DNA of 64,000 bases from Ruegeria intermedia. GTDB taxonomy: Bacteria; Pseudomonadota; Alphaproteobacteria; Rhodobacterales; Rhodobacteraceae. The notes beneath the pieces were generated by a model. That model made no database searches. It had not been told where the DNA came from and saw only the letters and a list, made by a program, of their open reading frames with translations. The stretch's first letter is position 1. Every line of letters starts with the position of its first letter. Below, piece after piece: positions 1 to 3,474 of the stretch. The translations under genes were made by a program, and so were the position numbers. The stretch covers positions 1 through 64,000 of the forward strand of contig NZ_FQVK01000004.1 of assembly GCF_900129345.1 (NCBI RefSeq), given 5' to 3'.

Positions 1-30
1 TTTGATGATCTTTTCCTGAATGCTTGTCAT
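1..30 (-). CDS. Transposase N-terminus, IS481-type (partial)
   Basis: Ten codons (MTSIQEKIIK) follow an AAGGAG box nine bases upstream and run off the left edge of the window. The short peptide resembles the opening of helix-turn-helix IS481-family transposases as I recall them. Nothing of the catalytic DDE domain is visible, so neither integrity nor activity can be judged. Confidence 0.4.
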   Translation of the reverse strand, partial: MTSIQEKIIK

Positions 31-95
31 TGATCGACACTCCTTGCTTGCGCTCCAAAAGAGCAGAAATGTCAGATCAAGTCGTGTGTTTTACA
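1..95 (-). mobile_element. End of an IS481-type insertion sequence, cut by the window edge
   Basis: Read on the minus strand, the segment begins TGTAAAACACACGACTTG, passes a good AAGGAG ribosome binding site, and reaches an ATG whose first ten codons read MTSIQEKIIK. That opening is what I remember from a group of IS481-family transposases, and IS481 ends usually begin with TGT. The boundary near base 95 is set where homology to a different IS3-family transposase starts abruptly at base 97. Only the terminal inverted repeat region and the extreme transposase N-terminus lie in the window, so family assignment rests on few residues. Confidence 0.45.
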
Positions 96-330
96 GATCA
101 AATATGAAGAGGTATACCTGCGCGCCTATGACAGCGTCTCGGCCGCCCGTGAAAGCCTTCGCCGGTATCTGGCATTCTACAACACGCGGAGACCGCATTC
201 ATCGCTGGACGGGCAGACGCCCGATCAGGCATACATCAACCCGTCGCGACCAATCCCGGTCGCGGCATAACCGAGCGGGAAATCCACCTACAAAACGGCT
301 CGAAACTGTTCAAACGAACCGAACCACCTC
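96..330 (+). pseudogene. 3' remnant of an IS3-family element (transposase C-terminus)
   Basis: From base 97 to the TAA at 268-270 the plus strand reads IKYEEVYLRAYDSVSAARES, then a YNTRRPHSSLDGQTPDQAY stretch. This is the C-terminal end of an IS3-family OrfB transposase, the part after the catalytic glutamate. The bases after the stop codon (AACTGTTCAAACGAACCGAA, then CCACCTC) look like that element's right end. The 5' part is missing: an IS481-type end abuts it at about base 95. It must therefore have entered before the IS481-type element. It also cuts the integrase fragment on its right, because integrase similarity stops at about base 332. Confidence 0.75.
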
Positions 331-331
331 T

Positions 332-391
332 ATCGTTCCCTTCTTTTTCTCCAGGATCTTTCATGTCTCGCACCAGAATCGTGGAGTGTCT
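332..391 (-). pseudogene. Internal fragment of the disrupted tyrosine recombinase
   Basis: Minus-strand translation from base 391 gives RHSTILVRDMKDPGEKEGND. This resembles the stretch that follows the first catalytic arginine in phage-type integrases, including the lysine-bearing beta hairpin (VRDMKDPGEK). It picks up close to where the larger integrase fragment on the other side of the IS3 element stops at ILWD, with a few residues missing between the two. The similarity ends at an older IS3 remnant. The H-x-x-R box and the nucleophilic tyrosine are not in the window, so the recombinase is inactive as it stands. Confidence 0.65.
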
Positions 392-425
392 TGATCAGCC
401 CCACCTGAGTGGTCCAGTTTGACTG

Positions 426-1280
426 TTAGTGCATAGTCGGCCTGTGGTCCATCGGGACGACGGTTTCCGGGGCCGGTGGGCGGTAACCCAAGGCGCTGTG
501 CGGTCGTTTCGTGTTGTAGTGCCTCTTCCATTGTTCGATCAGGATCTGTGCCTCGCGCAGGGTATAGAATATCTCGCCATCGAGCAGCTCATCGCGGAAC
601 CGGGCGTTGAAGCTTTCGCAATAGCCATTCTCCCAGGGTGAGCCGGGTTCTATGTAGGCCGTCCTGGCGCCGACCGCGGAAATCCAGTCCCGGGCAGCCT
701 GTGCCACGAACTCCGGGCCATTGTCCGACCGGATGCAGGCCGGCACACCGCGTAGGATGAACAGATCGCTTAGGGCGTCGATGACATCTGTGGAGTTCAG
801 CTTGCGCTTCACCTTAATCGCCAGGCATTCTCGGCTGTACTCATCAAGGATGTTCAGCGTCCGAAAAGCTTTGCCATCGTCGGTTCGACAATGGACGAAG
901 TCATAGGACCACACGTGGTTGCGATACTCTGGTCGAAGCCGGATACATGAACCGTCATTCAGCCAGAGCCGCCCTTTCCTCGGCTGCCTCGATGGCACTT
1001 TCAGCCCCTCCCGTCGCCACAGCCGTTCCACGCGCTTGTCGTTCACATGCCAGCCGGCATCTCTCAGCAAGGCTGCGATCCGACGGTAGCCGTAGCGACC
1101 ATATTGGCGCGCCAGCTCGATCATGTCCGCTACCAGGCGCTCTTCGTCAGCACGTCCCCTCGGCAGCTTGCGCTGTGTCGAGCGGTGCTGGCGCAGCACC
1201 CGGCAAGCACGACGTTCCGAGACGCCCAGTTCGTTGCGGACAAGTTCGATACAAGCTCGACGATGGGCGGGGCTCAGAAG
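426..1280 (-). CDS. IS3-family transposase OrfB (DDE integrase domain), made by -1 frameshift
   Basis: This is the catalytic half of an IS3-family transposase. The chain begins LLSPAHRRAC right after the frameshift site, has an HTH_21-like segment (GRYGYRRIAALLRDAGW) and then an rve-type catalytic core. The three expected acidic residues are visible in WSYDFV, IRSDNGPEF and SPWENGYCESF. The C-terminal YNTKRPHSALGYRPPAPE signature is present. There is no good start codon where homology begins, so synthesis is expected through slippage from orfA to give OrfAB. An internal GTG at base 1199 could also start a shorter OrfB. The reading frame is uninterrupted, so the element may be active. Confidence 0.85.
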   Translation of the reverse strand, partial: LLSPAHRRACIELVRNELGVSERRACRVLRQHRSTQRKLPRGRADEERLVADMIELARQYGRYGYRRIAALLRDAGWHVNDKRVERLWRREGLKVPSRQPRKGRLWLNDGSCIRLRPEYRNHVWSYDFVHCRTDDGKAFRTLNILDEYSRECLAIKVKRKLNSTDVIDALSDLFILRGVPACIRSDNGPEFVAQAARDWISAVGARTAYIEPGSPWENGYCESFNARFRDELLDGEIFYTLREAQILIEQWKRHYNTKRPHSALGYRPPAPETVVPMDHRPTMH

Positions 1281-1552
1281 TTTCCCTTTGCCGCCTCCGC
1301 CAGGATCAGCTTGTCCAGCGTCAGGTCCGACACGGCCTTCCTTAGCCGCTCATTCTCCTTCTGAAGCCGTTTGAGCTCTCTGAGCTGGTCGGTTCCCATC
1401 CCACCATACTGCTTGCGCCAGCGGTAGTAAGTCTGCTCGGTAATGCGAACCTCACGGATCGCATCCACCCGCGCCATTCCTTGCCCGACGAGCACCTCAA
1501 CCTGCCGCAGCTTCGTGACAATCTCTTCCGGCTTGTGTCGTTTCGTTCCCAT
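1274..1552 (-). CDS. IS3-family transposase OrfA (helix-turn-helix)
   Basis: The 92-residue protein opens MGTKRHKPEEIVTKLRQ and has the recombinase HTH (TEQTYYRWRKQYGGM) followed by a leucine-rich coiled segment (LRELKRLQKENERLRKAV). That is the standard layout of OrfA in the IS407-like group, where it binds the inverted repeats. The frame ends with GGA AAC TTC TGA. The overlapping heptamer GGGAAAC (1286 to 1280 on the minus strand) sits in the X XXY YYZ phase, so ribosomes slipping back one base enter orfB two codons before the stop. An AT-rich GAGGATCAG box precedes the start. Confidence 0.88.
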   Translation of the reverse strand: MGTKRHKPEEIVTKLRQVEVLVGQGMARVDAIREVRITEQTYYRWRKQYGGMGTDQLRELKRLQKENERLRKAVSDLTLDKLILAEAAKGNF

Positions 1553-1608
1553 TCTGATCCTCCGTTTTCCTCAACATAACGGCGGACCACTTCAGTGGGG
1601 GAAGGTCA

Positions 1609-2298
1609 ATCCCACAAAATGCGAGAAATTTCGGCTTGGCGTCTTGCGGAGAAAATCGCGAACGGAACAATCTTGCTCATTGGAATCGCCCGAGTGTCGC
1701 GAGTTTCCCGCCGCACAAAGCTTTCCATGAGCGCATCCAATTCGGCAATACTTGGGCGTCTCGTGCGCTTCTTTGATTTTCCAGTAATGCCTAGTGAGGT
1801 CGTGGTTTCTCGGGCTTCCTCGATGACCCTTTTGTCGAAAGGAACATCGAACGCTGGTCTGGCAAGCCGGAGGCAGCCAGCCAAATGGCTCATGTAGTTT
1901 GACGTAGTTGCGGGCGACCGAGCCGCAGATCCGTGTTCGCCCTCTGCTACCTGGATAGCAAACTCGACAAGGTCTGAGGGTCGAAGAGACGTGACTTCTA
2001 AATCAGCGACGTCAAAAAGTTTGATTGTGTTCAGAACCTGAGATTTGGTCTTACCCATCTCCTTGCGCTGGGTGGCGATAACTTGATCGATCAATTCTTG
2101 TACTTTGGTGCGGACCTGATGACTGACGAGTTTCCCAGCATTGAACTCTTTTTCAATCCGTCGGATCCAAGCTGTGGCCGTTGTTTTTCTTGGAAAGGTG
2201 GCCGACTTGGAGAAAACGATCCTCCCATTGTCCTTTTTGATGACCTGCGCTCGGTACTTGATGCCGGATTTGCTCTTGCGCTCAACGATAGTGCCCAT
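1609..2298 (-). pseudogene. Phage-type tyrosine recombinase (integrase), 5' part only
   Basis: The 230-residue fragment starts MGTIVERKSKSGIKYRAQV, which matches the N-terminal arm-binding fold of site-specific integrases. A core-binding helical segment follows. It ends in FAIFSARRQAEISRILWD, the box that carries the first catalytic arginine. At that point the IS3 element begins, and its first bases supply an immediate stop codon. The remaining catalytic residues (lysine hairpin, H-x-x-R, tyrosine) are separated or lost. The gene reads away from dusA and begins 160 bp from its start codon, a position typical of integrases that use dusA as target. GC content is visibly lower than in the genes to the right. 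Confidence 0.85.
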
Positions 2299-2317
2299 TA
2301 TTTCCCATTCTTTATTT

Positions 2318-2385
2318 TTGGCACACCGGTGTTATAGGTTCCCGGTATGCCAAGCTCCAAGTGGGTATGCCAAACGGTATGCCAA
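2318..2385. repeat. Three direct GGTATGCCAA boxes plus one inverted copy
   Basis: GGTATGCCAA occurs exactly at 2344-2353, 2364-2373 and 2376-2385, and a 9/10 match in opposite orientation lies at 2318-2327 (TTGGCACACC). The cluster fills the AT-rich gap between the integrase start and dusA. Spacings of 20 and 12 bp put the boxes near integral helical turns. Arrays like this next to an integrase gene are usually arm-type sites for the integrase or its excisionase; that role is inferred here. They could also regulate the integrase promoter. Confidence 0.6.
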
Positions 2386-2460
2386 AAACTCTAAATATTG
2401 CAAAACCCCGCAAAATAAGGCCCAAACAGGTCATCGTGCAAGCCAACAGAAATTGCCCAA

Positions 2461-3474
2461 ATGACAGATAAGCCCTTAATAACAAAGGCCGCGAGGCTGT
2501 CAGTTGCACCGATGATGGACTGGACGGATCGTCATTGCCGGTACCTGCACAGACTTCTGAGTTCCAATGCGCTTCTCTACACCGAGATGGTGACCGCACC
2601 CGCTCTTGTCCGAGGTGGCGCGCTTCACCTACTGGAGTTCAGCCCTGAAGAACACCCCGTGGCCCTGCAACTGGGCGGGTCCGACCCCGAGGAACTGGCG
2701 CAGGCTGCCATGTTGGGGGCCGAGGCGGGGTATGACGAGATCAATCTGAATTGCGGATGCCCATCCGACCGGGTGCAGTCGGGCACCTTCGGCGCAGTCC
2801 TGATGAAAGACCCCGCGCGCGTGGCGGACTGTGTCGCGGCGATGCGCGCAGCCGTGCGCGTCGAGGTGACGGTGAAATGCCGCATCGGGGTGGACGAGCA
2901 GACCCCCGAAGAGGTGCTGCCCGACTTTCTGGACAGGATCCGGGCCGCCGGATGTCAGCGGGTCACCATCCACGCCCGCAAGGCCTGGCTGCAAGGTCTG
3001 AGCCCCAAGGAAAACCGTGACATCCCGCCGCTGGACTATGAGCTGGTGCATCGGATGAAGGGTGCGTTTCCGGACATGCACATCTCGATCAACGGGGGAA
3101 TCGCGTCGCTGGCCGAGGCGCGTGCCCAGCTTGAGGCCGGGCTGGACGGGGTGATGATCGGGCGGGCGGCCTATCACCAACCCACCGACATTCTGGCCGA
3201 GGCCGATCCGCTGATCTTTGGCACCGGGGCCGCCGCCGATCCGGTCGACGTCGTGCGCAAGATGCTGCCCTATATCGATCGGCACCTTGCCGCAGGGGGG
3301 CGGTTGCACCAGATCACCCGGCACATGCTGGGCCTGTTCGCGGGCCGTCCGGGCGCGCGGGGGTGGCGACGGGCCCTGTCGGAAGGGGCGGTCCGGGACC
3401 ATGCCGGTCCCGAGGTCGTGCTGGAGGCGCTGGCCCGCGTGGCGCCGGACGCCGTCGCCGCCCCGGCAAATTGA
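2461..3474 (+). CDS. dusA: tRNA-dihydrouridine synthase A
   Basis: The FMN enzyme reduces uridine in the D-loop of tRNAs (U20/U20a for DusA). The 337-residue chain has the DusA opening LSVAPMMDWTDRHCRYLHR at residues 13-31. It also has the catalytic cysteine in NLNCGCPSDRVQ (Cys100), the flavin lysine in VTVKCRIG (Lys139), and HARKAWLQGLSPKENR at 171-186, a DusA hallmark. The first dozen residues (MTDKPLITKAAR) and the leader are AT-rich compared with the rest. The 5' end of dusA is a known insertion site for integrative elements, and a broken integrase lies directly upstream, so the present start and promoter may have been supplied by the element. No strong Shine-Dalgarno precedes the ATG. 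Confidence 0.93.
   Translation: MTDKPLITKAARLSVAPMMDWTDRHCRYLHRLLSSNALLYTEMVTAPALVRGGALHLLEFSPEEHPVALQLGGSDPEELAQAAMLGAEAGYDEINLNCGCPSDRVQSGTFGAVLMKDPARVADCVAAMRAAVRVEVTVKCRIGVDEQTPEEVLPDFLDRIRAAGCQRVTIHARKAWLQGLSPKENRDIPPLDYELVHRMKGAFPDMHISINGGIASLAEARAQLEAGLDGVMIGRAAYHQPTDILAEADPLIFGTGAAADPVDVVRKMLPYIDRHLAAGGRLHQITRHMLGLFAGRPGARGWRRALSEGAVRDHAGPEVVLEALARVAPDAVAAPAN

Follow-up and report, generated by a model that had tools for sequence, protein, structure and literature searches.

A broken dusA-associated integrase, an element-borne dusA start and putative arm-type sites in Ruegeria intermedia

The window, the whole 64,000-nucleotide stretch analysed here, is the left end of contig C4 in a draft genome of 86 contigs. 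It very probably contains one end, that on the integrase side, of an integrative element specific for dusA. Such an element would have recombined in the part of dusA that encodes APMMDWTD and given the gene a new leader and about 14 codons; it would later have decayed, leaving dusA with its element-borne start. Repeats in the leader are probably arm sites. The junction, the borrowed start, the broken integrase and the repeat layout are all shown by comparison with related sequences. The window contains no tRNA, and no Rfam family is found in it at the gathering score.

The junction at dusA

The dusA gene (2461..3474, plus strand, 337 codons) matches the DusA family model NF008774 with 490.6 bits against a cut-off of 269. 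A tyrosine integrase gene lies ahead of it and reads away from it. The N-terminal 230 codons of the integrase occupy 1609..2298 on the minus strand; the start codon is at 2298 and the dusA ATG is at 2461, which leaves a gap of 162 bp. This is the arrangement given in the original prediction, which put the gap at about 160 bp and called it AT-rich. The GC content of the gap is 0.444; dusA from 2503 onward has 0.674 and the whole window 0.636, and a value this low occurs in only 5 of the 3019 windows of 162 bp taken from 3474-64000. The first dozen codons of dusA had been said to deviate together with the leader. The leader does; codons 1-14 have a GC content of 0.476 and are only mildly unusual when taken alone (205 of 6049 42-bp windows are as low). 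This composition is not rare, which counts against the preferred explanation, as does the lack of a plus-strand promoter match in the gap; the promoter scan gave one match, on the minus strand.

When a collection holding a single genome for each species was scanned, one relative of the integrase stub came up, in another genus, in Zongyanglinia marina. The Zongyanglinia integrase (L011) is intact, has 359 aa and adjoins dusA in the same divergent arrangement. The stub is 79% identical to it over the remaining 230 residues and 75% identical at the DNA level. The similarity extends across the gap and into dusA. The leader (2299..2460, plus strand) is 77% identical to the Zongyanglinia leader, and the first 32 nt of dusA, within codons 1-14 (2461..2502, plus strand), are the same in both; after codon 14 the two dusA genes are 71.5% identical at the DNA level. 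The congener G065 shows the opposite pattern. It has the DusA closest to that of the window (95%) among 54 congeneric genomes, and no integrase of the dusA-associated family was found within 1.5 kb upstream of its dusA. Starting at the core, 500 bases of G065 are 92.6% identical to the window; the preceding 204 bases (2299-2502) reach 50%.

The crossover is bracketed to 2493-2530; agreement with Zongyanglinia on the element side ends after 2492, and agreement with G065 starts at 2509. The bracket lies in or near the attachment core (2503..2525, plus strand), which matches the degenerate core without a mismatch. On these alignments the crossover is placed within the APMMDWTD-coding core, in keeping with the expectation that recombination occurs in the dusA 5' end and that similarity to a close integrase-free relative breaks there. 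The leader and start are shared with Zongyanglinia and the sequence changes abruptly at the core relative to G065; by this comparison the leader and the first 14 or so codons of dusA therefore arrived with the element. The replacement of the native start had also been predicted, and leader and first codons do travel with the integrase in Zongyanglinia. We infer that dusA is expressed from the leader of the element; for another dusA element, a lacZ fusion described in the available text of PMC8409611 shows that the element supplies both promoter and N-terminus to dusA.

Repeats around the attachment core

The gap contains three exact copies of the 10-mer GGTATGCCAA, all on the plus strand (2344..2353, 2364..2373 and 2376..2385), and the rest of the window has none. 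An inverted copy with one mismatch is also present (2318..2327, minus strand). These four are regarded as putative arm-type sites. The window shows the integrase side of the layout only. In Zongyanglinia the corresponding set of repeats is accompanied by two more, inverted, beyond the far core.

The layout was surveyed across the family in seven phage records, hand-picked from the first 21 phage matches listed for the orthologue, and in those 36 of 80 IMG/VR loci in which 195 bp or more precede the integrase. In 41 of the 43 loci, a dusA-like core precedes the integrase start by 157-206 nt; the exceptions are L137, where only about 310 bp is available, and L139. Twenty of the 41 sites do not continue into dusA after the core, as judged by eye, and together with the Zongyanglinia far end they make up a set of 21 sites for which both sides are available. 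For 14 of the 21, all 60 dinucleotide shuffles gave fewer repeats common to both sides than were observed, and for 17 at most two of 60 gave as many; the misses are L131 (10 of 60), L090 (19), L170 (19) and L151 (60). Over the 21 sites, and with those misses, the family has repeated sites on both sides of the core.

The best inverted match between the sides of one element has a mean score of 10.29, compared with 7.61 for 420 mismatched pairs, and none of 20000 re-pairings reached the observed mean. The signal of single sites is uneven: for 11 of 21, the integrase side of another element outscores the cognate one. In 19 of 21 sites the best match follows the core at a distance of 47-71 bp. As a control for the composition of each individual genome, 13 windows located 110-1280 bp after the core score 6.9-7.7, compared with 10.0 for the first window. 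Direct orientation also gives a raised value in the first window (9.38), which would follow from repeats of both orientations on the integrase side.

The structure predicted for the intact orthologue (pLDDT 88.6) is that of a lambda-like integrase, and it aligns with residues 75-356 of lambda Int at Z 19.1 (rmsd 3.1, 253 aligned) and with full-length lambda Int at Z 18.4 (rmsd 9.0, 302 aligned). Residues 1-59 are predicted to form three strands and one helix (pLDDT 87.4), which is the layout of arm-binding domains in the available text of PMC8138268. A fold search with this N-terminal domain alone gave no match at E <= 0.001, and a second look gave a best Z of 6.2; the matches listed for it include no arm-binding integrase domain. 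Over 882 pairs from 43 elements, repeat similarity correlates at 0.298 with the N-terminus and at 0.234 with the catalytic part; the partial correlations are 0.238 and 0.146. Repeat similarity thus tracks the N-terminus slightly better, which is suggestive only. We infer that the N-terminus of the integrase would bind the repeats; those in the leader probably serve a lambda-like integrase as its arm sites on the integrase side.

It is rather unlikely, though it deserves some weight, that the flanking repeats bind an excision factor (RdfN- or PrtN-like) or a repressor instead of the integrase. Sites for excision factors can be direct repeats one helix turn apart, according to the text of PMC7498355 that was available, and a pair spaced 11-13 bp apart is present on the far side in 8 of 21 sites; the available part of PMC8409611 describes RdfN as required for the excision of dusA elements. 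Such a reading fits less well with the same element-specific motif flanking the core on either side, in either orientation, with the predicted three-strand, one-helix N-terminus, or with the correlations above, although the difference between the latter is weak.

For the dusA-targeting elements as a group, we think it likely that they share a single, unreported att layout. The core would mimic dusA at the distance from the integrase start seen in the survey. Element-specific arm-type repeats would flank it, two to five on the integrase side and with far-side best matches at the spacing found above, and these would change together on both sides. The integrases would be hetero-bivalent in the manner of lambda Int. 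The att site would double as a working dusA start; a dead element could then not simply be lost, and its arm-site leader would remain at the head of dusA, as it does in the window. In the main text of the openly licensed PMC papers searched, no description of arm sites was found for the dusA-associated integrase family. If the layout is true, it would help to explain how integration and excision are controlled in a widespread integrase family. It would also make complete and decayed dusA elements easy to test for by sequence.

Origin of the dusA start and decay of the element

The dusA start of the window, MTDKPLITK, is found in none of the 53 other congeneric genomes. At least 9 of the 54 genomes, including that of the window, have an integrase of the family within about 1.5 kb upstream of dusA; this number is a lower bound, as the search used two integrase queries. 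Two of the genomes (L024 and L040) have less than 270 bp upstream of dusA. The codons before ARLSVAPMMDW in the 54 genomes (L016-L045, L179-L202) form recurring start types which are hardly alike. One type, ending in NALKNNAQKAARLS, is found in genomes with and without an upstream integrase. Elements since lost may have left these types as scars.

The gene upstream of dusA in G065 was considered as a guide to the ancestral gene order and rejected. Its counterpart here is on contig C22, with no displaced dusA start after it. At E <= 1e-60 the protein is limited to 2 of the 54 congeneric genomes and the genes upstream of dusA vary between congeners, so the flank is no guide to the ancestral order. 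By eye we take the G065 gene to be an M48 protease; the genes after the M48-like gene on contig C22 are presumably BlaR/MecI-like. The M48 member is one of a gene pair (L062:3912-6902 on contig C22, and L017) which adjoins dusA through this member in G065 and is on another contig here. Its partner in the pair is, again by eye, presumably an FtsH-like AAA protease.

This variation of dusA starts within the genus would also be seen if the leader and start were native to the lineage and the integrase fragment were coincidental or a separate arrival, and no second att site was found in the draft genome to argue otherwise. Such an origin is nevertheless very improbable: another genus has this combination of leader, start and integrase, the start is absent from the other 53 congeneric genomes, and the dusA-like core is found at a similar distance before the integrase start in nearly all family loci. 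The preferred explanation remains a start brought in by the element.

The integrase gene itself is in two pieces. The stub keeps the region of the first catalytic arginine only and ends after it, where an insertion sequence of the IS3 family (392..1608, minus strand) interrupts the gene. The transposase matches NF033516 (225.9 bits, cut-off 160). The ends of this insertion sequence are inverted, with 17-nt arms that are 82% complementary, and no target duplication is found at them (TCT left, ATC right). Beyond it lies a detached piece of the integrase gene of 20 codons (332..391, minus strand), which matches the Zongyanglinia integrase with 81-89% identity over 19-21 residues. The piece is followed by the remnant of a second, multicopy insertion sequence (102..331, plus strand). 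The end of this remnant, at 331, is found again where seven other contigs end, with differing sequence beyond, and the frame at 107-270 is presumably the C-terminus of an IS3-type transposase. The contig begins inside the tail of a further multicopy repeat, probably an insertion sequence (1..101, strand not assigned); bases 1-95 or 1-101 recur with 98-100% identity at the ends of three other contigs.

The intact orthologue aligns through H304, R307, H330 and Y339 (L011 numbering); all four fall in the part missing from the window integrase, which is thus not a complete integrase with catalytic tetrad and tyrosine. The stub alone matches no Pfam or NCBIfam family at E <= 0.001; its intact relative matches PF00589 with 45.3 bits against a cut-off of 27.1. 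The rest of the integrase has no close match elsewhere in the draft assembly. The best are two stretches on contig C19 (L012 at 3053 and L013 at 65677), 39-44% identical over about 50 residues; these resemble tyrosine recombinase C-termini, and lie in open frames of 463 and 434 aa. A tyrosine integrase is present as originally predicted, but the 230-aa frame is not a whole gene, being cut by the insertion sequence that ends at 1608. The death of the element had been missed.

As the integrase is broken by two insertion sequences, the element cannot excise by its own means, and on its sequence it is a dead remnant rather than an active member of its family. It is possible that a second integrase acts on the remnant from elsewhere. 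In the proposed course of events, a dusA-specific element would recombine in the APMMDWTD-coding core, integration would give dusA a new leader and about 14 first codons, and two insertion sequences would later break the integrase, leaving dusA with an element-borne start. The window is a worked example of what a dying dusA element leaves behind, namely a borrowed start still on the host gene.

The island was expected to extend to the left of the window, with a second copy of the dusA 5' sequence as its other end. The contig stops at base 1, in the multicopy repeat. No second att core was found by a DNA search of the assembly with 2280-2620. A search of the assembly with the degenerate core, allowing up to three mismatches, gave the dusA copy and three hits with three mismatches; the one of the three that was inspected has no dusA-like start. 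The far-arm pair is also absent from the draft assembly at up to three mismatches. The expected second copy is therefore missing here, and with neither a second att site, far arm nor integrase C-terminus in the assembly, the far end of the island is never seen, which counts against the preferred explanation.

The expected pair of att sites exists in Zongyanglinia. That genome has two copies of the att core, where the draft genome of the window has one; leader, start and core are present twice in Zongyanglinia, 16 kb apart. To the left of the far core, a stretch of about 300 bp (L064:14919-15217) is 83% identical to the integrase-side end of the element next to it and includes the first integrase codons. 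From its sequence it looks like the stub of an older element displaced by a newer one; as we read it, the second element entered a dusA which had already been given its start by the first. In the window genome the rest of the island may have been lost or may lie in assembly gaps; decay is favoured because the integrase carries two insertion sequences. That the element is whole and active and hidden only by the assembly is scarcely credible: a contig end in a multicopy repeat and 86 contigs do leave room for unseen sequence, but the integrase is interrupted within the contig at 1608 and 331, which refutes an intact element for this copy, and no close match to its C-terminus was found elsewhere in the assembly.

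Comparison with known systems

By homology, the integrase is a member of the dusA-associated family already described in print. The 40 phage matches listed for the orthologue, out of 167, include AH2, DC1, BcepIL02, BcepMigl and H66. These are five of the six carriers named in the available text of PMC4482086; the sixth, mEp460, is not among the 40 listed. The specific group of dusA-targeting integrases that had been proposed is thus borne out. In the same text, recombination of dusA-associated elements takes place within a conserved part of dusA, and the gene receives a new 5' end from them. The window resembles them in its homologous integrase reading away from dusA, in a crossover in the 5' part of dusA and in an element-supplied dusA start. 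Unlike them, the window copy is broken by two insertion sequences, and its far end is not found in the draft. Repeats flanking the core are not described in that text.

IMEVchUSA3 of Vibrio is complete and mobilisable with RdfN in the available text of PMC8409611, whereas no partner gene is seen in the window. The lambda-like integrases described in PMC4880445 and PMC8138268 have the same domain order as that predicted here, and repeats on both sides of the core. The number, spacing and sequence of the sites differ from those systems and vary between dusA elements, and the sites are putative here. The nearest characterised relative of the dusA-associated integrases is Rci (PMC4482086, available text), which lacks an arm-binding domain (PMC8138268, available text). 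The junction is thus of a known kind, and the putative arm sites are the fresh part.
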